From NCBI GenBank assembly GCA_022606425.2, contig JAHDVF020000851.1, positions 248,001 through 312,000 of the forward strand: a stretch of DNA of 64,000 bases. Reading direction: 5' to 3'. The stretch's first letter is position 1. Every line of letters starts with the position of its first letter. Positions 27,328 to 52,580 of the stretch are shown here, one piece after another. The DNA is from Lepidostoma basale. Lineage: Eukaryota; Arthropoda; Insecta; Trichoptera; Lepidostomatidae. The notes beneath the pieces are model-generated. The model saw only the letters and a list, made by a program, of their open reading frames with translations. It was not told the origin of the DNA and searched no databases. A program made the position numbers and the translations under genes.

Positions 27328-27560
27328 TTTTCTTTCTTATATATTATACTTTGTATACAACACTAACATTTAATAAAATTAAAATTTTATATCAGACATG
27401 TTTCCGACAACCCGGTCGTTCCTCAGTGATATTATAAAGATATAAAAATATTATTTAAAAAAATACAAAAATGATCAGTTTTGACAGATGTTATATAGAT
27501 TTATTTTGGAACATTTATGCTTTTGTTATAACAAATATTATAAATCAATTTAAGTTTTTA
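27328..27560 (-). repeat. Family F repeat, copy 1
   Basis: About 230 bp shared with 52368-52580: ACTTTGTATA, the ribozyme-like core, TGACAGATGTTATATAGATT, then ATGCTTTTGTTATAACAAAT. The similarity extends well beyond the ribozyme core, showing a dispersed element with a common origin. Confidence 0.75.
27389..27432 (-). ncRNA. Small hammerhead-ribozyme-like motif (family F), best candidate
   Basis: The minus strand reads AUAUCA, CUGAGGA, A, CGAC, CGGGUU, GUCG, GAAAC, AUGUC, UGAUAU. Stem I AUAUCA/UGAUAU pairs six times, stem II four times, and all invariant core bases are present. Stem III is just ACAUGU, so cleavage would need two RNA copies to pair there, as in the small hammerhead variants described from Penelope-like elements. 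The predicted cleavage site follows the C of AUGUC. The other copy has a compensatory stem II pair. Confidence 0.72.
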
Positions 27561-27584
27561 TTGGGGTTCAGGTAATTAATTACT

Positions 27585-27830
27585 TTCAACTTCTTCGATG
27601 GCCCTACAGCCCATATCGAGCCTTAGCCTCCAGTATTATTCGCCTCCAACTCCTCCTGTCCTCCTCTTCGACCCTCCAATCTAACACTCTTAACAATCTT
27701 GCCCCATCTCTCCCAACTTCATCTCGGTGTGGAATTTGGTCTCCTTAACTGACTATTGTCCCTGGCCATCCCTCTCCATTCCAGGTCTTCTTTTCCAGGT
27801 TTTCATTAGTTTGTTTACCCCAAAAAATCT
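27585..27830 (-). pseudogene. Antisense LINE 3' fragment
   Basis: The minus strand has GGGATGGCCAGGGACAATAG, GAAGTTGGGAGAGATGGGGC, GAGGAGGACAGGAGGAGTTG and ATATGGGCTGTAGGGCCATC. It shares the GGGCTGTAG ending with 23885 and 59040. The frame is broken. Confidence 0.6.
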
Positions 27831-28131
27831 CTAAGGCATCAGTAATTTATCACCGGGTATGCTACTTTCAAAACATTAATGAGAAAATTTTAACTTATAT
27901 TAAACTTAACACATGGATTTAATCAAGAAGAATTAAGAGTTTTAGCGATAAATATAATGAATGATACTGCATTCTTACTGCAACGTACAAATTCACCACT
28001 TCAAAACGAGTAATTTATGAGTCGTTAAACTCACTTGAAGTTTCTTTTCATCGCAAATAAGAAAAAAACGTTTTTATTGCTTACTGATTAATTAATGACT
28101 AACACTTATTTTTTTGGTAAAATCAGCTTCG

Positions 28132-28330
28132 ACCTTACCCAAGCTTAATCAGAATTACAATCAATTCAATATATAATAGAATAGAATCTTCATAGAGGGC
28201 GCTGGTCTGTAAATTGAAACTGACACGTGAATTGTGGTGTTGCATATTAACATATATACAACTTCCAAAAAAATTGTCAGACATGGTGGTCATAAGAAAG
28301 GTGGAATGGGGAATGTTGTATTTCATAAAG
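28132..28330 (-). repeat. Dispersed repeat K, copy 1
   Basis: The minus strand has CTGTCATTGGTTGGGTTAAG, GTTGTATATATG and AGCGCCCTCTATGAAGATTC. Two other copies lie at 42030-42250 and 61317-61565. No ORF, inverted ends or pol III boxes were recognised, so its class is unknown. Confidence 0.7.
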
Positions 28331-28365
28331 CGTGCGCTTAACCCAACCAATGACAGTAAAAAATA

Positions 28366-28499
28366 AAGAATCATTAAGATTGTTTGGACATATGGAAAGA
28401 ATGAATGAAGAGAAATAATGGTAAAAAAATTGTATGTTAACGATATAAATGGAACCAGAAATAGAGGAAGACCGAGTGGTTAGTTAGTAAGTTAGTTCA
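28366..28499 (+). pseudogene. Internally deleted RTE copy, (GTTA)n-tailed
   Basis: It holds the WFGHMERMNEE to RNRGRP coding stretch and then jumps from GAAGACCGAG straight to TGGTTAGTTAG. Compare the copy at 1381-1537, whose deletion begins about 20 bp further along. Confidence 0.75.
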
Positions 28500-28951
28500 G
28501 TTGTTTCGTTTATTTTATTGTAAAATTCGTTTCCAATTTATTAATGTACTAGAATTAATAAGGAATAAATGTATTAGAATTTAATAAATCATTGTTATGT
28601 CTATTAATTACACGCACCGAGCGATATTCATACAAAAAGTTATTGCTTTTTGATCGCGCAATGAGAAGAAGAGCACATTCCCCGTAATTTGGGATAGTTT
28701 AAGATAATTACAAGAGAATACCTTTCTTTTTCTGACCGCGATTAACTTTATCGCAAATAATCATACCGCAAGGAGTATCGAACATAATTTCCGGATATGT
28801 TGGGGCGGAACGATAAACTAGCGAACCCCGAAGCGATTATTATTCATTGAGAATACACCGTTACTGCAGTGAAAATTATAAATTAAAAAAGAATCACTTT
28901 GATAGAAGTTCATTTTAAATAAAGCTTTGTTTTTCTTCCACTTTGTCCTGA

Positions 28952-28995
28952 TTTCGACAGCGATCGGTTTCGCTAGACTGGCTGGCATCGGACTG
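28952..28995 (-). repeat. Family D ribozyme-like unit
   Basis: The minus strand reads CCGAUGCCAG, a weakened hairpin, CUAGC, GAAAC, CGAUC, GCUGUCG. It matches the centre of the TIR element at 8686. The core is not consensus. Confidence 0.45.
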
Positions 28996-29084
28996 GAACA
29001 GTCTGTTGATATATGAGAATATCGGATCCTTGGCGGTGACCAAATAATGGAACTATATTCCAGTCGACTTCTTACCAGGGAATT

Positions 29085-29345
29085 ATCATCATCATCAGCC
29101 GTCTGTCATCCACTGCTGAATGTAGGCCTATCCCAAAGCACGCCACCGCCCCCTATCCATTGCCGCTCCCATCCATCCATATCCAGTAATCCTCTTAAGA
29201 TCGTCGGTCCAACGGGCAGGGGGACGTCCAACTCTACGGAATCCTGTACGCGGTCTCTACTCCAGAACCCACAGATATGGCCAGCCCACTGCCACTTCAG
29301 CCCGCCTATCCGTAGAGCCACCTCAGTCACCTTCACTTCACGTCA
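29085..29345 (-). pseudogene. RTE-type C-terminal remnant, antisense
   Basis: The minus strand encodes VTEVALRIGGLKWQWAGHIC, then (with a frame change) VGRPPAR-type and a WQWIGGG-type stretch, ending CCACTGCTGAATGTAGGCC on the plus strand. LKWQWAGH is the diagnostic block, as at 9548. Confidence 0.75.
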
Positions 29346-29790
29346 CTTCAGGGAATTATACAATACCCGAAGTACCTGAGTGTCTGAAAATATCTTGGCA
29401 TTCCTAAAAATAAATCCAAGCATTTTATTGGAACTATTACATAGAGCAACTCTGAAGAATGAACGATAATTGAGCATCGAACAGAACACCGAGATCTCTG
29501 GATGTAGAAGCTCTTTCAAGCTGAACCCCATCCATGAGATAGCAGAAGAATAATGTTTTCGATGATCATATGTATGACATAATAAAACACTTGGAGACGT
29601 TGAAGGCTAAAGAACAATAAAATATTGACAAGCAACTTGGGAGTAATGACGTCACGGAATATTTAAAATGTGAATCACTCCGTCAGTATTATAGTAACAT
29701 TGCTAAACAAAAAACTATAGTTACATTGCTTCGAACATTTGTGAAAAATGGTTCATAGATGCGAGTATCGTTCAGTATTCGGGAAGAAAG
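29346..29790. other. Intergenic stretch, no gene recognised
   Basis: No domain, repeat or ribozyme-like signal was identified. A 62-codon minus-strand frame at 29343-29531 lacks motifs. Confidence 0.5.
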
Positions 29791-29792
29791 AG

Positions 29793-29917
29793 AACTAACT
29801 AACTAACCATCACGCCGTCTCCCCGAAAGGGTAGGCAGAAAGAATGGACTGTCACACTTTTACTGATGCGGCACTCCATCCTTCTCTTTTCGCCCCGCGG
29901 GAGACGCGGTGTGATGG
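29793..29917 (-). repeat. Element N copy 3, portion left of the BEL insertion
   Basis: CTAACTAACTAACCATCACG, CCGTCTCCCCGAAAGGGTAG, CTGTCACACTTTTACTGATG and GAGACGCGGTGTGATGG match copy 2 at 13240-13415 in reverse. The sequence stops at GATGG and resumes as GATGGGTTGCGAAC at 37638. Confidence 0.85.
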
Positions 29918-30391
29918 TGTATCGGACGTACGGGGGCGATTAAAACTTCCCGATATTATCACTTAATTTCATCTATCTATTTGTGTTTGTGCGGCGTTGG
30001 AATCGTGGGCTGAATTAGGTAACGGGCGGAGAGAGGGGACTGCGCTGAAAGTCTGCTACCTAGGACGCCGAGGCCAGCAAGCTGTGTGCGAGCGAGAGAG
30101 GGCACACAGGGGTCCGCGGCGTCCATTTTGGCCAGTCCCACAATTCTCCCCGTACATTTTTTGCTCCCGGTTTTAACGCCGCAACTTTGTGTATTTAGAG
30201 TATAAGTCCTATTTTTTGTATTTTTCTTGTATAATTGATCATAAGGAATAAACGAGGCGGTCGGGACGGAGTGAAGTGTGAACGGTCGAAGCGTGGGGTG
30301 GCGAAAACAGTGGGAGGCCTCGCGGCCGGCAGGTAGCTTTGGGAAAGTGCCGCCAGGTGGCACTGCTACCGGGACCGCCGCCGGCAAATCG

Positions 30392-30426
30392 TATAAATAG
30401 GTGGGCCCTGGGCAGAGCAAATCAGT
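30392..30426 (+). promoter_or_regulatory. LTR core promoter (TATA plus arthropod initiator)
   Basis: TATAAATA at 30392-30399 is followed 32 bp later by the A of TCAGT, the arthropod initiator consensus. Transcription is predicted to begin at 30424. The same pair recurs in the right LTR at 37347-37381. Confidence 0.8.
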
Positions 30427-30644
30427 GCATGCCTAGAGCCTGCCAAGAGCATCAGTTGAAAATAGCCTTTATAAAGGCTGAGCCCTCGCACACCCCACTT
30501 CGCATCACGCTTCACTCTCTACCGATCGCCGACTAAATATAACTTGCTTATTATTTTTTCGCCCGCTTTCGGTACGAGAGTTAAGTAGCATCACGCCCCT
30601 TTCCCCGTGGACTACATCGGAGACGAGCAGCAGTCGGCGCCACA

Positions 30645-30650
30645 AATAAA
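30645..30650 (+). terminator. AATAAA poly(A) signal in the 5' LTR
   Basis: It lies 32 bp from the LTR end. The equivalent in the 3' LTR (37600-37605) would direct 3' end formation of the genomic RNA near the LTR edge. Confidence 0.6.
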
Positions 30651-30682
30651 AAATTACAGGGACGTCCAGTGCGTCCCGTACA

Positions 30683-30700
30683 TGGTCCTTCGAGCCGCGG
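30683..30700 (+). promoter_or_regulatory. Primer binding site, tRNA-Tyr type
   Basis: TGGTCCTTCGAGCCG starts at the first base after the LTR. It is complementary to CCA plus the acceptor and T-arm end of animal tRNA-Tyr, whose 5' strand begins CCTTCGA. Fifteen bases match before divergence. The tRNA assignment rests on general knowledge of that tRNA. Confidence 0.75.
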
Positions 30701-30716
30701 ATCAGTCTCATCTCCG

Positions 30717-31136
30717 ATGTCGCCTTCACTCCGCTCCGGGAAGGAAGCCTCCAGTGGGCCCGCTGGACCTTCCACCACCACAGCCGGAGGGAATGCACCG
30801 CCTTCCACCCACTTCGCTGCCGCCCCGGGCCTAGCGCCCCCGGCAGCCCCTCTCACCGCAGCCGAGCAGCCTGCGCCCGCCGTTCGTGTGCCTTCCGGGG
30901 ACCAGACGACCGCCGAGTGGCTGCAGACATGTTCATCTGCGCCCGCCGACAGCGGGGCTTCCGCAACAGCCGACCTCACCACGCCGTGTCCGAGCAGGAG
31001 CACGGACACCGAGGATGAGGACCAGCCGTCTTCGATCTCTACCCAGGACACCGTCCGCCTGCTCCGCAAGGAGCTGCGGAGGCGCGAGCGGGAGGTCGAG
31101 AGATACGCGGCACAGATGGAAGATCTTCAGGCTTGA
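30717..31136 (+). CDS. BEL/Pao gag N-terminal segment, ended by an in-frame UGA
   Basis: This open segment begins at the first in-frame ATG after the primer site (30717) and runs 139 codons. It is Ser/Pro/Ala-rich, then acidic (STDTEDEDQ), then a strongly charged predicted coiled coil (VRLLRKELRRREREVERYAA) close to its end, a feature often found near the start of Pao-type Gag. It ends at UGA (31134-31136) followed by C. The downstream 1891-codon frame is in the same register, 12 sense codons later. The stop could be a nonsense lesion (UGA is what CpG decay often yields) or a leaky stop used to limit product. This single sequence cannot decide. Confidence 0.7.
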   Translation: MSPSLRSGKEASSGPAGPSTTTAGGNAPPSTHFAAAPGLAPPAAPLTAAEQPAPAVRVPSGDQTTAEWLQTCSSAPADSGASATADLTTPCPSRSTDTEDEDQPSSISTQDTVRLLRKELRRREREVERYAAQMEDLQA

Positions 31137-31172
31137 CTGCGTGCACTCACAGGACGAGCGCCGCCAGCAGGA

Positions 31173-34100
31173 ATGACCGCTCCCGGCCCAGGCGGGCCGG
31201 CACAAGCAGGTCAACCGCGGCAGGATCCAACGCCGTTCATGCCCGGACAGCAGACCCGGGCCAGCGCGCCGGCGCCCGGCCGAGACGGCCCGGCCCACAC
31301 CGGCGCGCAGTGGAGGCATGGCGACCCCACATCACAGGAGGACAGGGCGCAGTACCACGATGACGCACCCGCGCCCGGCGCACCAAGCCTGGCGCCAGGT
31401 GCGCAGTGGGAACAAGCAGATCCTACTCCGAGCGGCTGGGCGCGGCCTTACGACCCGCGTTCAGCCCCCGAACGAGCGCTGCCACTGGGGATGACACCAT
31501 CCGGTTACAACGGACCGGCACAGGCGTGTCAACCGCGGCAGGTGCCGCCAGCACTCACCCACCAGGAGCCCGGACATCAGCATCATGCAGACGCGTCAGG
31601 CGCGCATTGGAGCAGAACGGATCCGACTCCGAGCAGCAGGGTCCCATCATACGACCCCTATGCTGCTGAGCGCAGGATGCAGGACCACAGCAGCGCGCCC
31701 GCGCCCGGCCCGAGGGCCCCGGCGCCGGCCGACACGCGGTGGGGACCCACGCAGCCTGTGCAGAGCGGCGAGGAGCGGAGCAGCCACGGGCGCTCCGCCA
31801 ATCGAGAGGAGCCGCACTACAACGCCGCGCCCGGCCTACAAGGCCCGGCGCCGGACAACACACGCGGGTACGCGGCCGGCACACACGCCCCGCCACCCCG
31901 CATGGACGGAGCGCCGATGCAGGCGCTTTGGCCCCCAGTGAGCGGTGGAACGGACGAGTCACTCGCCCGCCTGACCGCCTTGATGGAGAGGGCTGAAGCC
32001 AGGAGCCTCAACGATGGCCCTTCCCACTCAACTGAACAGGGGAACCAAATGACGGCCTTCCTCGCCAGACAGTCCATGGCGAAGGACCTTCCCAACTTCG
32101 CCGGCGACCCCCTGGACTGGCCGGGCTGGCAGGCCCAATTCTGGTCGTCTACCACCACCTGCAAGATGACCAAGGCGGAGAACCTGATGCGACTTCAGCG
32201 CGTACTCGTCGGGAAGGCGCGGGGAGCAGTAGCAAGCCTTCTTTTGGACCCGGAGCACGTCCCGGAAATCCTCGAGGTCCTGGAACGCCGCTTCGGTGAC
32301 GTCCACTCGATTGCGACACTGACCCTAGAGAGGGTTAGGAAACTCCCCGACCTCCCGGACAACGCAACGAACGAACAGTTCTTCGATTTTAGTGCGGCGA
32401 TCCAAAATCTAGTGGCGCAACTAAATCTCATGCCCTCGGATTACTTGGCGAACCCGGCGCTGTTGTGCGACGTAACTGCAAAGTTACCTTTCTTTCTGCG
32501 GGTGAATTGGGCGCAGACTGCAACCGAGTCAACCATCACCGAGTTCTCGAAGTTCCTCCGGAACATCATGGACCGGATGCCTCGTTTCGGTTGCTCGCTG
32601 AGATCAGGAAGGGCCGCGACGGGACGCGAGAGGCGCGACTTCAAGGCCACAGTGCACGCGACAGCGTACGAAGCAAAAGAATGCGCCGCGCCCGCGCGCG
32701 ACACCGTGAGTGCCCCGCCGCGTAAACGCCCCAGTGAATTAAGTGACAATAAAAGTGTAAGAAACGCTTGTGCGATCTGCCAATCACATAAACATAAGTT
32801 GAAAAAGTGCCCCGAGTTTACGAAAAGTGATCCGAAACGGCGCTGGGTGCTCGTTCGAGCGGCCGGCGCCTGTGTTGTTTGTTTGGCCTTACACAAAGGT
32901 CAGTGTGTGCAAGGACCGTGCAACATCGAGGGATGCGGCGGAGATCACCACGAACTCCTACATAGGACGCAAGCGGTGACGTGCATGCACGTCTCGCGGC
33001 CCGACCCAGATGTCTACCTCAAAGTTGCGGAGGTAACGGTGACCGGACCTAGAGGTGCAGCCCCAGTGCACGCTCTCCTCGATGAGGGGTCGACGGTCAC
33101 CTTAATCGACGCCAGAACGGCAAGAGACGTCGGCGCCACGGGACCGAAGTACGAGCTCCGCCTACACGGAGCACTCGGAGCGTGCGCAAAGGACTCTCAC
33201 TCCCGGCGAGTATCGATATCCCTCCTTAACTCGGAGGGACAAAAGTACACCGTGGAGGCATACACGGTGGAGGGTCTAGACCTCCCACTACAGCCGCTAC
33301 CCGACGGGCGACGCGTACGACCGGTCATACTGATCGGGAATGATAACGCGCACCTAATAGTGTCACGGGAGGTCTCTGAGAAAGCGGACCTCCCCCTCAT
33401 GTCCCGAACGGCCCTCGGCTGGTTAGCCAGCGGGAAGATACTTCACGCAACAACCTTGGCGCTACGATCCGAGGACCGGCAGGACACCCGACTAGACGAG
33501 CTGCTCCGCTACAATTTCGCGGTCGATTCCCTCGGAGTAACGGCCGCGGAACGCATCAACGCAGACGATCAGAGAGCGGAGCAGCTGATGGAGCAGACCA
33601 CTCGGAGACTGGCGGACGGCAGCTGGGAGACGGGCCTATTATGGAAGGAAGACTCCTCCCTGCTCCCGGACAATCGTGCGTGTGCGAGGAGGAGGCTACT
33701 CACGCTTGAGAAGAAGCTGCAGAGGGACCCGCCACTAGCTGCCCAATACACAGAGAAAATGGAGCTCCTGCTTAGCAAGGGTTACGCTAGGCAGTTGAGC
33801 GAAGCGGAGGCCGCTGCACCAGCACCACGAAGATGGTACCTGCCCCACTTCTCCATATCAAACCCGAATAAGCCAGGGAAGTTCCGAGTGGTCTTCGACG
33901 CCGCCAGCCGCTGCCGAGGGACCTCGCTGAACGACCGTCTGCTGACCGGCCCCGACTTGCTGACATCTCTGCTCGGGAACCTCATCCGCTTCCGCGAGGG
34001 CAAGGTGGCTCTCGCGGCTGACATTAAGGAGATGTTCCTGCGCATCAAGATTCGCCCGGCCGACTGGCCCTCGCAGACGTACCTATGGCGCCCGAATGCG

Positions 34101-36848
34101 CAGTCGGAGCCCGCCGCCTACGTCCTCACGTCCGTGATGTTTGGAGCGACTTGCTCCCCGAGCAGCGCGCACTTTGTGCGCAACAAGGCGGCGGAGGCTT
34201 GTGCGCTGAAGTTCCCCGAGGCAGCCATCGCGATCAGAACCAAGTTCTACATGGACGACTATCTGGACGCGGTGGACACCCCGGAGGAGGCCGCCACGCT
34301 CGTCCGAGACATCCGAGACGCCTTGGCAGCCAGCGGTTTCGAACTGACAAACTGGGCGACCAACGAACCCGCGTCCATCCAGAGTGTGCCCATCGACGCC
34401 AGAGCCAAGACGGCTGTAACCATCGACGGAGGCGAGGAGACAGAGAAGATCCTGGGACTGGAGTGGAGTCCGGCCGCCGACCAGTTCCGGTTCAACTTTA
34501 GGAGGACCGAGGACGTGGCGGCCCGACCCACCAAGCGACAGCTGCTGAGCGCCGTCATGAGAATTTTCGATCCGGTGGGCTTCATCACCTGCCTGACGAT
34601 CCGATCGAAGATCCTCCTACAGGCCGTCTGGCGGTCGGGCATCGAGTGGGACGAGGTCATCCAACCGGCGCAGGCCAAGAAGTGGCAGGAATGGTTGGAG
34701 CTCGCGAGCCACATCGATGTCAAGACCCCGCGTTGCACGGCCGGGAGAAGCGGCGGCGACGTCACACTGCACGTCTTCTGCGACGCGTCCGAGCTGGCGT
34801 GTTGCACCGTGGCTTACATAGTCGGGGGAAAGGACGTCTACTTCATTGCCGCGAAAACAAAGGTGGCACCCCTCAAGCCTCTGTCCGTCCCCCGAATGGA
34901 GCTGCAAGCCGCCCTGATGGCCGCCCGCCTGGCCGCCACCATACGAAAAGAGACGCAACTACACATAATCAAGACGACTTACTGGACGGACTCCTCCACG
35001 GTCCTATGCTGGATCCGGACGGACCCGCGCAGTTACTCCGCCTTCGTCGCCAACCGCCTCGGCGAAATCGACGAGTTGTCATCTGCCTCGGACTGGAAGT
35101 GGGTGCCCACCAAACTCAACCCCGCTGACGCCGGGACCAGGGACGGCGAGGCGCCGGATCTCACACCCGCTGGGAAATGGTTCGGCGGCCCCGCATTTCT
35201 GAGGGCACCGGAGACCGAATGGCCACGTGAGAGGGCGCTCCAGCCCCAGCCCGATGACCTAGAGTTGCGACCGCAATTCGTCGGGACACTTACACAACTC
35301 GACGAAGGAGGATTACCTGACGTCACACGGTTCTCATCCTGGAGCCGTCTGACCCGCGCCACGGCGTGGGTCCTGCGATTCATCCGCCGATGCCGCGAGG
35401 GAGCAGCAAGCCGGGAACCAGAGGGGACGCTCCGCGCCGAGGAGGTCCGCGAGGCCGAGAAGAGGCTGACACAGGCCTCGCAATCCCGATCCTTCCGCAG
35501 CATGCGCTCGAGCCGACTAGCCCCTCTCGCGCCGTTTCAGGACCGAGAGGGCCTATGGCGCGCTGACAGCCGCCTGAGGAAACTCCGCGGAGTGTCGGGC
35601 GACACGCGCTCGCCGATAATCCTCGACGGGGACGACCCATACACCCGTCTCCTGCTCAACCACATCCACCACAAAGGACTTCACCCGGCGATAGAGACGA
35701 CTGTGGCAGAGGTGCGCAGCAGCTTCCACGTGCTGAGATTGCGCACTAACTTGCGCGCCTTGCGCTTCCACTGCCCGACGTGCCGCTTCAGACGCTGCCA
35801 GCCACTACCACCCAGAATGGCCCCCCTGCCATCGATCCGGTTGGCCGGACGCGTCCGGCCCTTCACCCACTGCGGATTGGACTACTTCGGGCCGATGGAG
35901 GTTACCATCGGCCGACGGCGGGAGAAGAGGTACGGAGCGCTCTTCACGTGCCTGACGACGCGCGCCGTGCACCTTGAACTCGCCGCCTCACTGAGCGCGG
36001 ACTCCGCCATCATGGCGCTCCGCCGGATGTCCGCCCGCAGGGGCCAACCCGCAACCATACTCACGGACAATGGAACCAATTTCCACGGCGCTGACAGAGA
36101 GATGAGAGAGGCCGCCACGGAGCTGTCTGCGAATGAGAAGATCGCAGAGTACCTGGCGGGGAACGAGACCGAGTGGAGATTCATCCCCCCCGGAGCCCCG
36201 CACATGGGGGGAGCATGGGAAAGGCTAGTGCGGTCGGTGAAACAAGCCCTAAAGGCGATCCTAAGGGAGCAAGCCCCTCGGGAGGAGACCTTGCTGACCG
36301 CACTTGCCGAGGTGGAACACACCATCAACAACCGCCCGCTGACCCACGTCGCCGTGGACCCGACAGAGGAGGAACCCCTGACCCCCAACCACTTCCTGAT
36401 GGGGGGAGCCTCGCGACGACCGCATCTCACCATCCTCGCAAGAGGAAAGCCGGACGCCTGCCTGCGAAAGCAATGGCGCATCAGCCAACAACTCGCGGAT
36501 GGATTTTGGAGACGCTGGCTAAGGGATTACGTCCCCACCATCAGTCACCGGCAGAAATGGCACCAGCAGCGACCGCCCATCAAGGTGGGGGACTTGGTGC
36601 TACTCGCCGACCCGTCGCTGCCAAGGAACACATGGCCCCGCGGACGCGTCGTCGAGGCCACCCCGGCAGCTGACGGCCAGACCAGAACCGTGACAATACA
36701 GACGAGCAAGGGAACATATACGCGGCCTGCAGTCCGCGTCGCTGTATTTCAGCCGGAACCAGACACGCCACTCCCGAAGGATGCTCTTCCGCCGCCGAAG
36801 ACCCGTCGACGACCGACCCCCCGCCTAGGATACGCCCGAAAGTGTTAG
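31173..36848 (+). CDS. BEL/Pao gag-pol polyprotein (1891 codons)
   Basis: The polyprotein covers retroelement capsid and replication functions in the cytoplasm and nucleus. Residues 1-270 are Pro/Ala/Gln-rich and repetitive. A DUF1759-like gag core starts near LPNFAGDPLDW (306-316). A Cys/His zinc-binding region lies at about 533-600 (C533, C536, then CVVC at 567). The A17-type aspartic protease has LLDEGST at 635-641. The RT has FRVVFDAA near 907 and FYMDDYLD at 1025-1032. RNase H acidic residues are D1204, E1243 and D1273. The integrase zinc finger is H1497 with H1533-C1534-C1537 nearby, and its catalytic residues are D1570, D1632 and E1683. The C-terminal DUF5641-type domain follows (VGDLVLL at 1805). 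All catalytic signatures look intact. The ATG at 31173 is simply the first after the upstream UGA, and the native start is probably further upstream. Confidence 0.95.
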   Translation: MTAPGPGGPAQAGQPRQDPTPFMPGQQTRASAPAPGRDGPAHTGAQWRHGDPTSQEDRAQYHDDAPAPGAPSLAPGAQWEQADPTPSGWARPYDPRSAPERALPLGMTPSGYNGPAQACQPRQVPPALTHQEPGHQHHADASGAHWSRTDPTPSSRVPSYDPYAAERRMQDHSSAPAPGPRAPAPADTRWGPTQPVQSGEERSSHGRSANREEPHYNAAPGLQGPAPDNTRGYAAGTHAPPPRMDGAPMQALWPPVSGGTDESLARLTALMERAEARSLNDGPSHSTEQGNQMTAFLARQSMAKDLPNFAGDPLDWPGWQAQFWSSTTTCKMTKAENLMRLQRVLVGKARGAVASLLLDPEHVPEILEVLERRFGDVHSIATLTLERVRKLPDLPDNATNEQFFDFSAAIQNLVAQLNLMPSDYLANPALLCDVTAKLPFFLRVNWAQTATESTITEFSKFLRNIMDRMPRFGCSLRSGRAATGRERRDFKATVHATAYEAKECAAPARDTVSAPPRKRPSELSDNKSVRNACAICQSHKHKLKKCPEFTKSDPKRRWVLVRAAGACVVCLALHKGQCVQGPCNIEGCGGDHHELLHRTQAVTCMHVSRPDPDVYLKVAEVTVTGPRGAAPVHALLDEGSTVTLIDARTARDVGATGPKYELRLHGALGACAKDSHSRRVSISLLNSEGQKYTVEAYTVEGLDLPLQPLPDGRRVRPVILIGNDNAHLIVSREVSEKADLPLMSRTALGWLASGKILHATTLALRSEDRQDTRLDELLRYNFAVDSLGVTAAERINADDQRAEQLMEQTTRRLADGSWETGLLWKEDSSLLPDNRACARRRLLTLEKKLQRDPPLAAQYTEKMELLLSKGYARQLSEAEAAAPAPRRWYLPHFSISNPNKPGKFRVVFDAASRCRGTSLNDRLLTGPDLLTSLLGNLIRFREGKVALAADIKEMFLRIKIRPADWPSQTYLWRPNAQSEPAAYVLTSVMFGATCSPSSAHFVRNKAAEACALKFPEAAIAIRTKFYMDDYLDAVDTPEEAATLVRDIRDALAASGFELTNWATNEPASIQSVPIDARAKTAVTIDGGEETEKILGLEWSPAADQFRFNFRRTEDVAARPTKRQLLSAVMRIFDPVGFITCLTIRSKILLQAVWRSGIEWDEVIQPAQAKKWQEWLELASHIDVKTPRCTAGRSGGDVTLHVFCDASELACCTVAYIVGGKDVYFIAAKTKVAPLKPLSVPRMELQAALMAARLAATIRKETQLHIIKTTYWTDSSTVLCWIRTDPRSYSAFVANRLGEIDELSSASDWKWVPTKLNPADAGTRDGEAPDLTPAGKWFGGPAFLRAPETEWPRERALQPQPDDLELRPQFVGTLTQLDEGGLPDVTRFSSWSRLTRATAWVLRFIRRCREGAASREPEGTLRAEEVREAEKRLTQASQSRSFRSMRSSRLAPLAPFQDREGLWRADSRLRKLRGVSGDTRSPIILDGDDPYTRLLLNHIHHKGLHPAIETTVAEVRSSFHVLRLRTNLRALRFHCPTCRFRRCQPLPPRMAPLPSIRLAGRVRPFTHCGLDYFGPMEVTIGRRREKRYGALFTCLTTRAVHLELAASLSADSAIMALRRMSARRGQPATILTDNGTNFHGADREMREAATELSANEKIAEYLAGNETEWRFIPPGAPHMGGAWERLVRSVKQALKAILREQAPREETLLTALAEVEHTINNRPLTHVAVDPTEEEPLTPNHFLMGGASRRPHLTILARGKPDACLRKQWRISQQLADGFWRRWLRDYVPTISHRQKWHQQRPPIKVGDLVLLADPSLPRNTWPRGRVVEATPAADGQTRTVTIQTSKGTYTRPAVRVAVFQPEPDTPLPKDALPPPKTRRRPTPRLGYARKC

Positions 36849-36864
36849 TACGGCGCAGCCGCAC

Positions 36865-36872
36865 GGGGGGAG
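36865..36872 (+). promoter_or_regulatory. Polypurine tract
   Basis: GGGGGGAG abuts the right LTR and would prime plus-strand DNA synthesis. It lies 17 bp after the gag-pol stop codon. Confidence 0.8.
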
Positions 36873-37637
36873 TGTATCGGACGTACGGGGGCGATTAAAA
36901 CTTCCCGATATTATCACTTAATTTCATCTATCTATTTGTGTTTGTGCGGCGTTGGAATCGTGGGCTGAATTAGGTAACGGGCGGAGAGAGGGGACTGCGC
37001 TGAAAGTCTGCTACCTAGGACGCCGAGGCCAGCAAGCTGTGTGCGAGCGAGAGAGGGCACACAGGGGTCCGCGGCGTCCATTTTGGCCAGTCCCACAATT
37101 CTCCCCGTACATTTTTTGCTCCCGGTTTTAACGCCGCAACTTTGTGTATTTAGAGTATAAGTCCTATTTTTTGTATTTTTCTTGTATAATTGATCATAAG
37201 GAATAAACGAGGCGGTCGGGACGGAGTGAAGTGTGAACGGTCGAAGCGTGGGGTGGCGAAAACAGTGGGAGGCCTCGCGGCCGGCAGGTAGCTTTGGGAA
37301 AGTGCCGCCAGGTGGCACTGCTACCGGGACCGCCGCCGGCAAATCGTATAAATAGGTGGGCCCTGGGCAGAGCAAATCAGTGCATGCCTAGAGCCTGCCA
37401 AGAGCATCAGTTGAAAATAGCCTTTATAAAGGCTGAGCCCTCGCACACCCCACTTCGCATCACGCTTCACTCTCTACCGATCGCCGACTAAATATAACTT
37501 GCTTATTATTTTTTCGCCCGCTTTCGGTACGAGAGTTAAGTAGCATCACGCCCCTTTCCCCGTGGACTACATCGGAGACGAGCAGCAGTCGGCGCCACAA
37601 ATAAAAAATTACAGGGACGTCCAGTGCGTCCCGTACA
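36873..37637 (+). repeat. BEL/Pao 3' LTR
   Basis: 765 bp that read as the same sequence as the 5' LTR. The predicted antisense 147-codon and sense 65-codon frames are also the same in both, which supports identity. It is followed by the GATGG duplication. Confidence 0.95.
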
Positions 37638-39430: not shown

Positions 39431-39475
39431 ACACCTGATGATGTCAAAATAGATTGACGAAACAGCTGTTGCGTA
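39431..39475 (+). ncRNA. Small hammerhead-ribozyme-like motif (family G), consensus core
   Basis: ACACCUGAUGA, U, a 5 bp hairpin GUCAA/UUGAC, GAAAC, AGCUGUU, GCGU. Both core strands match the hammerhead consensus exactly (CUGAUGA and GAAA). Stem III is the palindrome ACAGCUGU. Stem I pairs at three of four positions. Stem II pair 2 is U-A here but C-G in the copy at 8927, a compensatory change. Confidence 0.7.
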
Positions 39476-42250: not shown

Positions 42251-42254
42251 AGCT

Positions 42255-43345: not shown

Positions 43346-43349
43346 TTCT

Positions 43350-43935: not shown

Positions 43936-43959
43936 CTTTCGAGTATGCTGCGAATATGT

Positions 43960-44115: not shown

Positions 44116-44332
44116 CGACATTCACAAGAGTGCCAAGAGCTGTGTTTGCTATACTGATGGTCCTGGGTTCGATTCCCGGCAAGGGCAGTGTGATTCTTAC
44201 ACTATCTTTGATCATATATAGAATTCACGTGACAATAAAAATGGCGATAGACTAGCTACCTATCATATGTCATAAGAATCAATACAATAACAAAAAAAAA
44301 TTTGTATACAGTAATTGGGTTCAAACGACTTG
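44116..44332 (+). mobile_element. tRNA-derived SINE, 3' subfamily II
   Basis: Box B GGGTTCGATTCCC is intact and box A is eroded (TTCACAAGAGTGCC). The body has TTCACGTGACAATAAAAATG, CGATAGACTAGCTACCTATC. The 3' end has TTTGTATACAGTAATTGGGT and TCAAACGACTTG, as in the reverse of 16830-16860. Confidence 0.82.
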
Positions 44333-44334
44333 GT

Positions 44335-45195
44335 GTATATAATAAAAAAAATAGTTAAGTTGGTGGAACCAGTGTCCGTACACGATCCGATGCATATCAA
44401 TGGAATTTTGTTTCCTGAGATTAAATTCGTGTTTTTGGTTGAGACATCAAATTTTAAGGCGAATTCCTTTTATAGCATTAGTTATTTTCACTAAAAACAA
44501 ACATTATCATACAAGTACACCAACAAATCTCTCCGAGTTTCAAAATTATGGTTCCTACGATTACACGGTCTCCCCACGCACTCACATTCTATCGGTTATA
44601 ATTCCCATTCACGTGAAATCGTATATAATAAATATTGATTATAATTGATATCACGGTCTTACATTTATCTGTGATTGATATGAAGAAACGTTATGACATG
44701 AAAGTGTTGAGCGAGGTTATGACACAGGCTTAACACATTAAAGTTAAAAATAACATTACTCATGCTTATTTGTATACGCCTTGTACATTCAAGATACTCC
44801 TGTCTAGTTGATTGAATTATTGGTCATTAAAAAATCATCGAAACTGTTTGGCATGTATAACCTTAATGTTTATTACACAATAGTAAGTATTATTTCATAA
44901 ATGATTCTTAATGTTAACAGTTTTGTTTATTATTGGGTTTATTTCTTAATAAGTAGAAGTCGTATTCTAAGTTCGGTTGCTTCATTGATTCAGGAAGCAT
45001 TATTTTACATTTCAATATTGTGTGGTTCAAAATACATCAATGCAATATTATTCTTCTTTCCCTTTGCGGGTTCTTCCAATAATTTGTAAAAGGGAATGAA
45101 AATGAAAGAGCGTTCATTTTCACATGAATATATTTTTCTTTTTAATAGATCTGACGATCTGTGGCACAGAAATCATGTCTCCTGGAATGATGAGA
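44335..45195. other. AT-rich intergenic stretch, no gene recognised
   Basis: Short open frames at 44400-44648 and 44901-45089 are AT-rich and lack motifs. Confidence 0.5.
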
Positions 45196-45196
45196 A

Positions 45197-45935
45197 TTGA
45201 TGATTCAATTCAATTCAATTTATTCAAAAAAATATAAACATTACAGAATAACAAATCCAAATCGTTTATAATCACAATATACAAATCTAAAATTAACATT
45301 TTTTTTAAAATTAATTACAAATAATATAATAAGAAAACAAATGAGAGCAAGTAAGAAAAAAAACCAGAAGACAATTAAAAAATATACGAGTATATTCGAG
45401 AACAGTTTGGTAAAGATAAACATTTTTGTACAATAAGAAGAGAAGCAAATAGCAATTTAATACATAAGATATAGATGCTTTCTGAGGGTAGCCTCACTAT
45501 CGTGAAAAATGTCCACATCCGAAGTGATGCGGTTTAATAGGATTATAACCCTACCCACCGGCATTACCTTTGGTAGATTGGTTCTACACAGTGGCAGGTG
45601 AAATAATCTATGTTGCCTTTGTCGCAGCTAATTGTCGGGAACAAACAAAGTCAAGTCATTCAAAATATCAGAGTTATGTATTCGACAGTCAAGTGAAGTC
45701 AATCAGTTGAAAAAAGTGAACACCCAGGTGGATAGTTCGTCTAATTTCCAATGATTGGTAGTCCAGCATACCCAGCAAGAAATCAGATGGGTACAGCCAG
45801 GGGTAATAACCGTTTTCTTTAAGGTACAGAAATCGTAAGAATTTTTTCTGTACCTTCTCGATTAACAGACAATATTTTATGCCTATGGAGCAAATAATGA
45901 GCTTCAGATATTTTAGAGTAGAGATCTGCATTCAT
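45197..45935 (-). pseudogene. Jockey/CR1-like LINE C-terminus (family M), antisense
   Basis: The minus strand from 45931 encodes CSIGIKYCLLIEKVQKKFLR, FLYLKENGYYPWLYPSDFLL, GMLDYQSLEIRRTIHLGVHF, then decays. IE.VQK.FLR.L and P..FLLGML.Y.SLE.RR are diagnostic of the region after the polymerase in Jockey/CR1-like elements. The 3' end is TTTGAATAAATTGAATTGAA on the minus strand, a short (AATTG)n tail. Confidence 0.8.
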
Positions 45936-46230
45936 TATGACCTTTATACCGAGGAACGAGAATGAGTCAATAAAGCTCCGGCCAAGTCAGGGTGTCTGAA
46001 GAATCTGGTCTGGAAGAACAAGCACATGCGTATCGACAGCAATGTCAGATTTATAAGACATGAGTACGACCTATCATGACGTATTCTGACACTGTACGAA
46101 CCAAGGGTCTGCAAAGAACATGTATGATTGATGACGGTCCTAAGATTCATTACTGAAAAACTCTCCGAGATCGTGTCCGTAACGCAGACATTAAAAAAAC
46201 CTGCGAAATGAAAATATTACCATGTGAAAA
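45893..46230 (+). pseudogene. RTE-like RT remnant (family B), close to the 2247 copy
   Basis: GTCTGAAGAATCTGGTCTGG, AGAACAAGCACATGCGTATC, CCGAGATCGTGTCCGTAACG and AAAAACCTGCGAAATGA align with 2310-2560 of the copy at 2225. Deletions and frameshifts run throughout. Both copies start at the same CAGATATTT.GTAGAGATCTGC point. Confidence 0.8.
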
Positions 46231-46504
46231 GAGTCAACCAAATCAAAGTTAGCAAATAAATCATGTGCGACCAAATCAATTAATATTAAAACTTTTGGCC
46301 ATTTTAGAAGTATATTGCACCGTATACATTTAGAAGTGTCAAGAGTATTCAAGAGTATCCAATTCTGCAATATTTGCGCACCTATGAGAGAAAAAGTTAA
46401 GTGAAAATATTAGATTTTTTTTTCACAATACATAAACGTTTTTATAATGAATACTTTTATATTAACACTCTAGCATTTTTTTATTACATAATCAACATAA
46501 CGTT

Positions 46505-46932
46505 CACAGTGGGTTTCTTGTGCCGACCCTTATGTATGGAAGCGGAACATAGAACTGCCATAAGGAAGATAAAAGTAGAATAAATGCAGTAAAAGTCTGT
46601 ATACGAGTATGATTGAGTGACCATGTAAAATGCAAATATGAGAAGTGAACGCAGTGCGAATGGAAGTACTATGAACAAAAAAATTAACGGGTCATTTAGA
46701 TGGTTTGGACATATGGAAAGAATAAATTAAGACAGAATGGTGAAGATAGTATATGTAAACGACTTGAACGTAGCTAAAAATAGTGGAAGACCGAGGAAAA
46801 TGTCGGATATTGAATGTCGATCAAGTGAGGGGTTGGAGACGTGCGTTCAAGAGACGATATATGAATGTAGAGGAAGCGATAGAAGTATGGTATGTCCGGA
46901 CAGAACAATGTGGCGGTCCATTATTCTTGAAT
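46505..46932 (+). pseudogene. Decayed RTE-like fragment
   Basis: TGCCGACCCTTATGTATGGA, ATGAACAAAAAAATTAACGG, TTTAGATGGTTTGGACATAT, and GGACAGAACAATGTGGCGGT keep family order. It ends at CCATTATTCTT without the tail. Confidence 0.75.
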
Positions 46933-47158
46933 AGTTTTAGCCTCCTTGATGATTTTTCACCAAGCCCCTCGATCCTGCACCTTTTGCTCCCAGTAGTCCG
47001 ATTCGCCCAACCTAGCCAGGTCAGCCAGAACATTGTCCATTAGGCGCTGTCTAGGCCTTCCTAGAGGTCTTATTCCAGTCGGTCTAGACCCGTACAGGGT
47101 TTTGATTGTTCTGATCTCTTCGGCTCGGCATAAGTGCCCAATCCATGCTAGTATTACT
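46933..47158 (-). pseudogene. Antisense LINE fragment (LGRPRQR block)
   Basis: The minus strand has TAGCATGGATTGGGCACTTA, GAACAATCAAAACCCTGTAC, GACCTCTAGGAAGGCCTAGA and CAGCGCC. It encodes a WIGHL.R-like then PLGRPRQR-like order typical of non-LTR C-termini. Confidence 0.6.
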
Positions 47159-47544
47159 TAAATTACTGTTTATTACTTAAATATAATTTTTCGCATTTGA
47201 CGTAAAATAAAATTAGTAAAATGAATAATTGTTTTATTTTTATCTTAAGTATTCTAAGACACGCATTTAAAATGATATAATCAGTTTTGTGCTTCACACA
47301 ATTTTCTAGAATTCAGTCATTTACTCTCACGTATTATTATCGCAATAAGATGGCTATCTGACGATCTCATGTCAGCCATAGACTTCAGCGTAATTTAATG
47401 TCAAAAAAGTCACACGCAAACGGAAAATATTTGGTCCAGAGCTTTATTGCGGGAACATGCATAAGATTTGTACAACAAACATTTTTGTTTACAACATTAT
47501 TAAAAACAGGTTTTATAATGAGAAATAAAGGTTTCACAGATAAA

Positions 47545-47906
47545 AAAAACGATAGAGTGTCAAAAGAGTGTCAAATGCAAGTATAAGAAGTGAATGTGGT
47601 GCGAATGAAATCGTCATGAACAAAATAATGAAAGGGTCATTAAGATGGTTAGGACACATGGAAAGAATGAGAGAAGACAGAATGGTAAAGAAGGTATATG
47701 TAAACGGCGTGAACGGAGCTAGAAATAGAGGAAGGCCGAGGAAAACGTGGCACGATCAAATCAATCAAATCGATGTGCGTGCATGACAAGATGTATGAAT
47801 GTAGAGGAAGCGAGAGAAATATGACAGAATAGAACAGTATGAACAGAACTTTCTGCCTACCCCTCTGGGGAGACGGCGTGATGGTTAGTTAGTTAGTTAG
47901 TTAAAT
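47545..47906 (+). pseudogene. RTE-like C-terminus, (GTTA)n-tailed
   Basis: The open stretch 47568-47786 reads SNASIRSECGANEIVMNKIM, KGSLRWLGHMERMREDRMVK, VNGARNRGRPRKTWHDQINQ. A deletion then joins directly to the CGTGCATGAC arginine-rich region. The end is CTGGGGAGACGGCGTGATGG followed by (TTAG)4. Confidence 0.85.
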
Positions 47907-48009
47907 AGAAGTTTTAATAATTTTTATGGAAATGAAATATTTCGCCTTACTAAGGCAACAAATATTAAGCGAAATAGTAATTCACAAAAACATTAATAAA
48001 CCATTATTC

Positions 48010-48275
48010 TATCATCCACTCGTTCCGTATATCCAAATCATCATCTTTTTTATTAAACCAGTTATCCTTTTTTAATTTTACTTAGTTTTCAATTCCTTAT
48101 TTCGTCTTTCGATATTCATCATTTAATGTTTTCCCACATATATTCTCAGTGATCTCATTTCTACGATACGAGTATATCATATGGTGATCTTTTTTCCGAC
48201 AGCTCCAAGCTTCATTTCCATACATAATGGTTGGCATTAAAACTCCATTATGTACTGCCATCTCTGCTTCAGTGG
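48010..48275 (-). pseudogene. RTE-like fragment, antisense, 3' truncated
   Basis: The minus strand has GAAGCAGAGATGGCAGTACA, TAATGGAGTTTTAATGCCAA, TGGAAATGAAGCTTGGAGCT and a WFGYTERVDD-like region. It resembles the 18345 copy in its first half. Confidence 0.75.
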
Positions 48276-48726
48276 ATGTTCAAATTACATGACACGTATT
48301 CTTCAACTCTGCAAGCAACATTAAACTGTCCACTGTATTACATAATATTCCAAGTGCCAATGGACCTACAGCGCGGATATAGTTAGTATTCAAATGGCAA
48401 AAGATGATACGATGTAAAAAAGTAAAGGAATGCGTAATATGTATTGTACATAATCCCACCAACAAATATTAACATTGAAAACGTTTACATAACGTAAATT
48501 TATAACAAAATTCATCACAAATGTCAACTTTCTAATTGTAACCTTTGGTATTTTACTATTATAATTTTTCTAAATTATCTGATACTTAAACACATTTTAT
48601 TAGTTGGTTCACATTAGTAATACATCAATACGTTTATTGTATTTGAATATAATTTAAAAAAACTATAAAATTACTTGTATTTTATTAAAAATTTCATTTT
48701 AGATAAATTACACTTACTTTTATGAC

Positions 48727-48766
48727 TTAGATCGGTTTCGGCAGATCGCTAGTATCATCGTGTCAA
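48727..48766 (-). repeat. Family D-like ribozyme unit
   Basis: The minus strand reads ACGAUGAUA, CUAG, CGAU, CUGCC, GAAAC, CGAUC. Hairpin pairing is poor. Assigned by GAAACCGATC and flank resemblance to 28952. Confidence 0.4.
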
Positions 48767-48799
48767 AGAAAATTGCTTTAAGTAAAAAGAGACATTTAT

Positions 48800-48932
48800 T
48801 TATTGTTTCTTAAACAATTATGTAAGACTCCATATTAAATAATAAATACAAATGAGAACGTATATTATCTAAAAGTTGTATTTTATGGGAATAAAATGAT
48901 GTGTTTCGCCCTTCAAAGGCATTATCAAACAT
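48800..48932 (-). repeat. Family I unit with ribozyme-like end
   Basis: TTATTGTTTCTTAAACAATT, CATATTAAATAATAAATACA and GTGTTTCGCCCTTCAAAGGC, then ATTATCAAAC match the left arm of 8395-8578. On the minus strand UUGAUAAUGCC, GGGC, GAAAC, ACAUC. Confidence 0.6.
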
Positions 48933-49036
48933 TTAATGAATCAAAACACGTTTTTTTATCCCCCTAAAATATAATGATATTTCTAGAAAAATGTTCATTC
49001 GAATAAATTATAAAATACCTTATAGATATATTATAT

Positions 49037-49308
<272 letters not shown>

Positions 49309-49321
49309 ATATTATATCTTC

Positions 49322-49484
49322 AAGTGCCATGTCAGGTCCCCCAGGTGTAGGTTTCTCTGTCATATGTTAGTCGGAATAACTACCCTACCCTCTGAATTCC
49401 GGTCCACTCTCTGATGTTTCTCAGCCAGGACATCTGGGGTCAGCCACACAGCGACTACCCAGAATCTTTCCCAATAATGAAGTG
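49322..49484 (-). pseudogene. Family C LINE 3' end, antisense
   Basis: The plus strand has AAGTGCCATGTCAGGTCCCC, CCGGTCCACTCTCTGATGTT and TCAGCCAGGACATCTGGGGT, the reverse of the ending at 220-366 and 4690-4835 (CGTCGGGAAGT.TG to CTGACACGGCAC). Confidence 0.65.
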
Positions 49485-49492
49485 TACTAGAC

Positions 49493-49805
49493 CAGTGTTC
49501 CGCAAACTTTTTGTGTTCAAGGTACACCTATCAAATCAAGAAATCTTAGAGGTGCACCAAAGAAAAAAGCAATATTTATTTAATATTTATTTATTACTAA
49601 ACGAGTAATAAAAGTACTTACTCGATACGCATGCGTGCTAAGTTCGGCGATAGCTTGTGAGCGAGGCGCGCAACGCGGGTGAGGCTATCTCGCCCCTCGC
49701 GTAATAAAGTGTATTATTTTCACAAAACATTGACTTTTTTGACGGCACACCAACTGATGACCACGGTACACCAGTGTGCCGCGGCACACGCTTTGCGGAA
49801 CAATG
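49493..49805. mobile_element. hAT-type non-autonomous MITE with perfect 8 bp target duplication
   Basis: The left end CAGTGTTCCGCAAACTTTTT is answered on the right by TTTGCGGAACAATG. This is the CAGTG..CCGCAAA-type terminus common in hAT MITEs. TACTAGAC flanks both ends (49485-49492 and 49806-49813), and 8 bp is the hAT duplication length. No transposase is encoded. A GC-richer core (CGCAACGCGGGTGAGGC) lies at 49665-49700. Confidence 0.92.
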
Positions 49806-50164
49806 TACTAGACAACGCAAAATACGATTTTCTGCACCTCATCCACTATAAAAAAATGTAATACATCTTCGCAGTTTCGATTCTGGTTTGCAGTAAAGTC
49901 TTGTACCTTGTTATCCACTGCGCTTGATCTTCTGCAGTTCTGTTCACTTCGCCATATGAGACACTGCTCATGTTCTTGCATACCAGTTATAAATACTTCC
50001 GTCGGGGACACCCCCTGTAATTTCCCTTCAACCAACCCCTCTATTATGTCGTCTAGGAGACCCTAATAGAGCAGTATTTGATCGATATTTTGTGCTTGTA
50101 TTTTTGTGATAGTTTTTCCTCCTTGATTCTACTCTGATCATTCATTGATATGATATGTCTAGAA

Positions 50165-50325
50165 ATTTTAACACTTTCATTCGCACTGCATTCACTTCTT
50201 ATATTTTAATTCGACACCCTATCCTACTTTAATTCGACACATTCATATAAGAGATCTCATTTTCACTGCATTTCTTCTACTTTAAACCTTCTTTTGCCAA
50301 ATTCATGCTTCACTTCCTACAATTT
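50165..50325 (-). pseudogene. Decayed RTE-like fragment, antisense
   Basis: CATTCGCACTGCATTCACTT, GAGATCTCATTTTCACTGCA and TTTTGCCAAATTCATGCTTC follow family order in reverse. A short internal duplication of TAATTCGACACC is present. Confidence 0.65.
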
Positions 50326-51003
50326 CATTTTAGCTTTTTTGGATAAGTTTGTTATCATTTAAAATTAAAACATATTAATTATTATCTCAATTCGAAAGCT
50401 CATATATAGTCACGATGTATGTAAAAAAACAAGTTTCGTTGATCGGGAGCCAAGCTTACTATCACCCATGACTGCCACTTCTATTCTAAATAAGCTTTAA
50501 TTAATGATTTCCAAATTCAAAATTTATTATCAACGTTGATCAAAGAAGATATGATGTAAATTTTTATGGAAATATTAATTGATATAATTATTTCATTCTT
50601 TGGTTAGTTAAACAAAATAAAAGTATGATTTTCTCTAAGATATAAAAGTTAACAATTAAATCGTCTCGTTAGTTGACACAAAAATATATAATTTTGATAA
50701 GATGTGATTGAATATTCATTTATATATGCAAATAAGATAAAATAGAACATTTATATTAATATTTGTATTAATGAATAAAGTGACGGAAATTTCAGAGAGT
50801 TTCGTACAAGACGGAATGAAATACTGTGCTCGAGTGCTCATGCGTGTTCACTTTACTTCTAGCTATTATGTTATCAAAAATTGATATTAAAAATGCAAAA
50901 AAACGTAACATAGAAATAACAGTTTACATGTACTCTGATTTTCAATAAAAATAAATAAATTTGAAGAATTTTTATTTTAATAAAATGAAATATAATATTG
51001 TTA
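50326..51003. other. AT-rich intergenic stretch
   Basis: Nothing was recognised apart from low-complexity AT-rich sequence. Confidence 0.5.
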
Positions 51004-51004
51004 C

Positions 51005-51085
51005 CACAGAACCGAAGTGCGAATGAGAAAGCATTAAAGACAAATAATGACCGGTTCGTTAGATTATTTTGACACGTGAACAAAC
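51005..51085 (+). pseudogene. Tiny decayed RTE-like fragment
   Basis: CCGAAGTGCGAATGAGAAAG and CATTAAAGACAAATAATGAC, then GGTTCGTTAGATTATTTTGA, mirror the ECGANE-MNKIMKGSLRWF coding DNA. Confidence 0.5.
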
Positions 51086-51539
51086 AAATTCATTTTATTT
51101 GTTTATTTATTCTTAATTAATTAATTTCATAAATAATACATGTATTTATTTAGTTATTTATTGATTGATTTAATTATTTATTATATATATTCAGACATTA
51201 CATATCATCTTTTTGAAAATCATTGTATTCTCCATATTCATAGTTAACAGCTTATTTTGTGTTTTTTTTTTTACAAACAAGTATCATATTTAAAATTGTA
51301 ATTTAGTTATTTAAACACCTAAATATCTTGTGTATCTTCGAAACATATAGTGGTAGTAAATTTTTAATGGCAAAAATATATTAAAACTGCCAAAAGAGTA
51401 CATTTCTACGAACCGTGCAAATCTACCCACATAATCGGTTTTTTTTCCTACCCAATCGAGTAAATTTCTCAGATATGCAAAAATATTTCAATTAAAAAAA
51501 CATCTAGTAACATTCTACTAATTATGACTATTGTGTTTC

Positions 51540-51835
51540 AAATCATAATTAAACATTGGATTGCATGCGCATATAACGTAACCTACTGTTGCACATGCAG
51601 GCGTCAATTAAATTGAACTCCGTTTCCCCGGTAACATAAGCTCCTCCGTGAAATGCATACAAACGCAGCCGCAAGCCCAAAGCTTCTCGCCGCTGCGCTG
51701 GTACCAAGAGCGACCGCGTACTCCAGACAGCCCCTTCCGGGCTAGGAGCTTCGTCACTTTGACTCAAGTTGTTAGCCAATATTCCCGTAATGTTCACTAA
51801 GTGGCTTAACTGCACGAAGATCTATTAAGGTATAT
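51540..51835. other. GC-richer patch of unknown nature
   Basis: Against very AT-rich surroundings, 51600-51780 is markedly GC-rich with several CpGs. An 88-codon frame lies on the minus strand (51549-51815) but has no recognisable domain or repeat match in the window. It could be an exon, a promoter or an unrecognised repeat. Confidence 0.4.
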
Positions 51836-52365
51836 GTTATTGGAACTAGTTGAGATCTTCGAGCTCCAGTGTCCCCGTGAGAAGACATCTACGTTCTAGT
51901 GACATAATAGCTAAAAACAGTAAGCAATATCAATTATCAATTGGGTATCGCTTTACTGAAACACATGATATAAAATACAAAGCTTGCATGAAATATATTA
52001 TGTAATTTATAGTTTCTTGAACAATTACGCGAAAATTTTGTATTAAATAATTTTAATTTTGAAACACTGATAGGTACTATACTTTATTTACTTATTTATT
52101 AATCGCTTACCTTTTATTTTATAATATATGGTTTCAATACCTTCCAAATAAGGTAACCCGTTCTAAGGAAGCATTTTTCACACCCTATATAATCTCAATA
52201 TATAAAATACAAATTTAGGGAATAAATAAGGAATTAAAATAAATTGTCTTATGGGATATAACATATAAACACCGTATTAATACTAATTATAATACTTCTT
52301 CTACGTGTTTTAATGACGCGTGACTCGTTTAATGACTATGTGTTTTAATGACGCTTTATTTCTTT
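51836..52365. other. AT-rich intergenic stretch
   Basis: Only a partial family I flank (TTTCTTGAACAATTACGCGA at about 52013) is recognised. Confidence 0.5.
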
Positions 52366-52367
52366 TT

Positions 52368-52580
52368 TATATTTATTTTTTATATACTTTGTATATATTT
52401 AAAAAAATACATAGACATGTTTCGGACAGCCAGTCCTTCTTCAGTGAAACATATAAAGATACATTTTTCAAAATATTATAAAATTGTTTACATGATCTGA
52501 CAGATGTAATAAAGATTTATTTTAGAACGTTTATGCTTTTGTTATAACAAATATTATATTTCAATTTAAAATTTAAAATA
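52368..52580 (-). repeat. Family F repeat, copy 2
   Basis: It shares the ribozyme core and both flanks with 27328-27560, including TGACAGATGTAATAAAGATT and TATGCTTTTGTTATAACAAA. Confidence 0.75.
52410..52450 (-). ncRNA. Small hammerhead-ribozyme-like motif (family F), copy 2
   Basis: The minus strand reads CACUGAAGA, A, GGAC, UGGCU, GUCC, GAAAC, AUGUC, UAUG. Invariant core bases are intact. Stem II is GGAC/GUCC where copy 1 has CGAC/GUCG, a C-G to G-C swap that keeps pairing. Stem I is weak beyond the first pair. Confidence 0.65.

Follow-up and report, generated by a model that had tools for sequence, protein, structure and literature searches.

The window analysed here is a 64-kb stretch of the Lepidostoma basale contig JAHDVF020000851.1 (positions 248,001 to 312,000), and all coordinates below refer to it. 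It consists of AT-rich eukaryotic DNA that is packed with repeats, many of them decayed. Two related minus-strand repeat blocks of about 225 bp, here named family F, lie at 27329..27553 (copy 1) and 52359..52569 (copy 2) and align with 74% identity over 229 columns; each contains a hammerhead-like ribozyme motif, at 27389..27432 and 52410..52450, respectively (both minus). The window also holds a Pao-type long terminal repeat (LTR) element (29917-37637) with a 1891-aa open frame, whose two identical 766-bp LTRs indicate a young insertion. Among the matches listed for its polyprotein (120 of 427), the named relatives are almost all arthropods, with one sponge and none close. A Pfam search covered five open reading frames (ORFs) of the window.

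The two F motifs were read directly, recovered as matches of a hammerhead descriptor, and examined by computing their pairs and folding energies. On the minus strand, copy 1 (C3 at 27426) reads AUAUCA-CUGAGGA-A-CGAC-cggguu-GUCG-GAAACAUGU-C-UGAUAU, and copy 2 (C3 at 52444) reads CUGAAGA-A-GGAC-uggcu-GUCC-GAAACAUGU-C. The cores that the original prediction had assigned to them are thus present, namely CUGAGGA/GAAA in copy 1 and CUGAAGA/GAAA in copy 2. Direct reading also bore out the claimed change in stem II, which is CGAC/GUCG in copy 1 and GGAC/GUCC in copy 2, so that a C-G pair became G-C with pairing kept, and a pair check agreed with the 6-bp stem I of copy 1 (AUAUCA/UGAUAU). As had been stated, stem III is the palindrome ACAUGU in both copies, the short palindromic form that characterizes minimal dimer-type hammerheads. 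Both copies carry the hammerhead consensus as used in PMC3088659 (C3 U4 G5 A6 N7 G8 A9, G12 A13 A14, A15.1-U16.1, H17), and the predicted cut site of copy 1 lies after C17, the C of AUGUC.

The original prediction further held that covariation between the copies argues for selection on an RNA fold. For family F alone, this argument is weak. The comparison offers one compensatory pair, C-G in copy 1 versus G-C in copy 2, which is a single event, and copy 2 is without a proper stem I. In a neutral simulation (26.9% divergence, observed substitution types), all four stem II pairs were kept in 19.1% of the runs, and stem II was kept together with a two-sided change in 3.3%. Because the pair had been noticed before it was tested, the F covariation is suggestive at best.

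The motifs of the window as a whole carry more weight. Both strands were scanned with a descriptor made up of CTGANGA, stem II (minimum 3 bp, one spare base allowed), GAAA, and a 6-10-nt palindrome from A15.1. It matched the window seven times, whereas 200 dinucleotide shuffles (4-kb blocks) averaged 0.015 matches each and never gave more than one. When stem II was not required, 12 CTGANGA...GAAA sites (gap 6-34) were found, eight of which bear the palindrome. Stem II reached the 3-bp minimum at 7 of these 8 sites and at none of the 4 sites lacking the palindrome; random window segments show such a stem II in 11.3% of cases. The eight palindrome-bearing motifs belong to five sequence groups: A (three copies), F (two copies), G, X, and Y. 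The F copies, being related, do not count as two independent matches, and X and Y occur once each. In BLAST comparisons of the 1-kb surroundings, matches between groups were confined to the flanks (AT-rich sequence, or another repeat common to A and G), with one exception: a 31-nt match at 87% links the inverted partner of an A motif to the palindrome and T-rich flank in the 3' part of F copy 2.

Family A motifs lie at 26061..26087 (plus), 53863..53890 (minus, from the descriptor scan, with stem II decayed beside the core), 1038..1068 (minus, from a mismatch scan and the CTGANGA...GAAA scan, with the outermost stem II pair mispaired), and 11338..11368 (plus, with a G5 to A core change, CTAAAGA). 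The family G motif (26798..26831, minus) ends in AUGUU. Motif X (39435..39471, plus) has the stem III palindrome ACAGCUGU and a 1-bp stem I beside the core, and motif Y (62374..62406, plus) has the palindrome ACCGGU and no stem I pair beside the core; both are descriptor matches.

Covariation was then assessed across the eight motifs, which had been picked by core and palindrome irrespective of stems I and II, using seven stem I/II pairs. Fixed-length composites were used because MAFFT alignment of whole motifs failed to line up the cores of different groups with one another, and a one-base spacer before stem II was set by us for all rows. The results showed standard pairs in 83.9% of the stem I/II cells (78.1% for stem I and 91.7% for stem II), compared with 50.2% in shuffles and 21.9-41.7% when the partner was slid by 1-3 columns. 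A two-sided change was seen in all seven pairs, which 11 of 500 shuffles also reached, and 20 cells carried such a change, compared with 6.2 in shuffles (0 of 500 reached 20); with three A copies and two F copies among them, the rows behind these counts are not all independent. A count with motifs H and J (described below) added gave 85.0% versus 59.6%; it was set aside because it includes stem III, a selection criterion, and the eight-motif test is the fair one. Judged from sequence comparison, selection on the RNA fold is therefore well supported only when the motifs of the window are compared together.

The motifs also share features of arrangement. In three families, motifs stand head-to-head in palindromes: A (26061 with 25975, the inverted partner being at 25946-25975, minus), G (26831 with 26900, the partner being at 26900-26933, plus), and H (8577 with 8579). 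The A motif at 11338 lies between inverted repeats of about 62 bp with 91% identity, motif J between 22-nt ones, and motif I in a shorter palindrome. No inverted repeat at E 1e-3 was found for X, the A motif ending at 1068, or the H motif at 62548, and none spanning the motif for Y or the A motif ending at 53890. Of 16 motifs inspected, ten carry an ATG whose first base is A9; it is absent from both F copies, both G arms, Y, and one A copy.

Taken together, these motifs are best explained as relic pseudo-LTR (pLTR)-like repeats that carry minimal dimer-type type I hammerheads and stem from a Penelope-like element or a non-autonomous element derived from one, a reading to which we give a probability of about 0.72. 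Such hammerheads have reportedly been described in Penelope-like elements by Cervera and de la Pena (2014) and by Lunse et al. (2017). The window motifs would share with them the type I topology, the core, the very short palindromic stem III, and the setting in a short non-coding repeat of an animal-like genome; they differ in that the window has neither tandem F copies nor a recognised Penelope ORF, and in that copy 2 is without stem I. Reviews describe minimal type I hammerheads without helix III in Penelope elements, which act as dimers via the palindrome; PMC6155905 and PMC10085705 were also drawn on. By this model, we infer that the ACAUGU palindromes of two copies, located on separate transcripts or on the same one, would meet and pair into a full stem III, whereupon the RNA would be cut after the C of AUGUC. 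Such a cut may serve to process the transcript close to where the element starts, and a protein encoded by the element might assist.

Two known Penelope systems bear on this reading. According to PMC3846280, the pLTRs of rotifer Penelope elements measure 181-218 bp, are direct or inverted and often head-to-head with palindromes, and take in the first codons of the ORF. The F block of about 225 bp is of similar size, and so are the head-to-head inverted repeats and palindromes of A, G, and H; in contrast, F has no clear inverted partner, and the passages of that paper cited here do not mention hammerheads. In PAc, a Poseidon element of Anolis carolinensis, the hammerhead lies at the pLTR/ORF border, where, as PMC11167929 describes, the ORF opens at stem II and is preceded by C3 and G8. 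The ATG at A9 in most of the examined window motifs recalls this arrangement, although F and G lack it, and PAc is coding and repeated. The same source reports that the PAc hammerhead needed added protein for cutting and was unnecessary for insertion in vitro. The likeness to small Penelope hammerheads proposed in the original prediction thus stands as regards the core, the palindrome in stem III, the size of the block, and the other motifs nearby, and falls short in that the window has no F tandem. The F copies are solitary and 25 kb apart, with no third copy in the window, so that the window offers no F tandem for dimer cleavage on one transcript, the arrangement that PMC6466107 gives as a requirement.

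Several further observations weigh against this explanation. In both F copies, one unpaired A separates A9 from stem II, so the N10.1-N11.1 pair directly beside the core is lacking; six of the seven descriptor matches have one unpaired base at this place, which breaks the strict criterion in PMC3088659, where a mispair next to the core at stem II is rejected. The F copies have neither an ATG at A9 nor an inverted repeat at E 1e-3, copy 1 being surrounded by one AT-rich 26-nt inverted pair of 77%. No Penelope reverse transcriptase or GIY-YIG motif was recognised by regular expressions in the six frames of the window, which is a crude test. The lowest-energy single-strand fold consisted of the hammerhead pairs in none of the 11 motifs folded, and these pairs came within 1 kcal/mol of the minimum in two, F copy 1 (-6.9 versus -7.8 kcal/mol) and the A motif at 11338. 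Given their composition, the F copies have unremarkable folding energies (z -0.20 and -0.82). Folding as dimers returned other duplexes as the best structures; this result was given no weight because the method cannot represent the crossed base pairs that a dimer hammerhead would form.

These data also separate the two F copies, to both of which the original prediction had ascribed intact cores, leaving out the spare A, the 1-bp stem I of copy 2, and its predicted misfolding. In copy 2, the hammerhead pairs reach -0.6 kcal/mol, compared with -9.3 kcal/mol for a rival helix, AUGUUUC/GAAACAU. As a dimer, copy 1 makes a plausible ribozyme and could still be active; copy 2 is probably dead. As far as sequence can tell, the F copies are old, partly broken members of an already known kind, the palindromic-stem-III hammerheads of Penelope-type repeats.

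A question raised by the palindromes is whether the motifs belong instead to non-autonomous fold-back or miniature inverted-repeat transposable element (MITE)-like DNA elements, whose inverted ends matter as DNA and whose hammerhead is inherited without a role in movement. The placement of the A, G, and H motifs in palindromes, and of A11338 and J between inverted repeats, would suit such elements. However, F, X, and the H motif at 62548 show no inverted repeat at E 1e-3, and a role at the DNA level leaves the constant core and the covarying stems I and II unexplained. As head-to-head inverted pLTRs with palindromes are known in rotifer Penelope elements, we prefer pLTR relics to unrelated fold-back elements and regard the latter as unlikely. 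In a bolder view, which appears rather improbable to us, several diverged hammerhead families would reside in short palindromic elements with a ribozyme on both strands, one family having undergone a C3-G8 to U3-A8 core swap; they would work as dimers, or in trans upon each other's transcripts, and RNA of either strand could be cut, as in avsunviroids.

Metazoan-type non-LTR retrozymes, in which circular RNA arises from short repeats arranged in tandem and bearing type I hammerheads, resemble F in that such a hammerhead sits within a short non-coding repeat of AT-rich sequence, and retrozyme-like repeats are reported in insects (PMC7229834). As described in that source, however, retrozymes occur as tandem copies and their helices are fuller, whereas the F copies are solitary, their stem III is minimal, and Tandem Repeats Finder detected no array with 150-450-bp units in the whole window, so that this origin is quite improbable. 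Chance resemblance of an AT-rich repeat that happens to contain the core might account for F taken alone, with its one compensatory pair and defective copy 2, and becomes barely credible against seven descriptor matches, five sequence groups, and covarying stems.

Motifs with variant cores were also found; H, I, and J were chosen by eye from a mismatch scan for core variants that gave 37 rows, and thus carry selection. Family H has the core UUGAUAA (U3, A8) and comprises a head-to-head pair (8547-8577, minus, and 8579-8609, plus) within a palindrome at 8509-8647, and a single copy without an inverted partner at 62548..62578 (plus). Two of its three copies hence form one palindrome, and in two copies stem II is reduced to two outer pairs. 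A descriptor with the U3/A8 core, stem II, and palindrome gave one match versus 0.085 per shuffle, which is not significant by itself, so from its sequence family H should be taken as a lead rather than a result. Covariation of the U3-A8 type in hammerhead cores has previously been reported in nature (PMC3088659). Motif J (8745..8777, minus) has the variant core CUGUCGA and the palindrome ACCGGU, and motif I (8932..8965, minus) has the variant core UUGAUGA and the non-palindromic GAAACAUCUG. Three distinct hammerhead-like motifs (H, J, and I), each with its own palindrome or inverted repeat, are thus found within about 510 bp (8481-8989). A microRNA-like Rfam match at 8539-8620, under the gathering score, is regarded as a side effect of the palindrome. 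By eye, a decayed relative of motif J (CAGAAGA...GAAACCGGTC) is seen at 11997-12028 (plus). At 45151-45179 (plus) and 59836-59864 (minus), CTGACGA precedes a short hairpin and then AAATCATGTC or AAATCATATC, beside related repeat sequence; with no proper GAAA after the stem, these two sites are probably coincidence.

A search of the window with the models of Rfam 15 returned no hammerhead, either at the gathering score or at E 10. This negative counts little against the hammerhead claim, because a near-ideal motif found elsewhere (L002; stem I CCCC/GGGG, stem II GGCGU/ACGCC) was likewise unmatched, and the Rfam models seem blind to the minimal form. One pattern gave three matches in prokaryote assemblies (L001, L002, and L003), and one gave three in viral contigs; two other patterns run against viral contigs, and a further one run against genome contigs, gave none. 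The outer stem II pairs and spare base of these matches are no evidence, since they were built into the patterns. The L002 and L003 motifs have a 4-bp stem I that the pattern did not request, and in L001 and the three viral-contig matches the first stem I position is unpaired. The contigs of L002 (2000-6691) and L003 (1-410), each with a minimal hammerhead motif, were deposited as bacterial metagenome-assembled genomes (Zoogloeaceae and Prevotellaceae, respectively). These AT-richer stretches adjoin ORF-dense, bacterial-looking sequence and are therefore probably eukaryotic DNA in chimeric contigs. A literature search combining hammerhead, Lepidoptera, and Penelope found nothing, from which we claim no absence from print.

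Overall, the window holds several apparent dimer-type hammerhead relics that Rfam 15 does not report, and dimer-type hammerheads may therefore be under-counted. The role of the hammerhead in Penelope-like elements is called a mystery in a review (PMC7761336); the groups described here, which differ in stem II and in the stem III palindrome, would provide a natural set for studying both the dimer model and that role.

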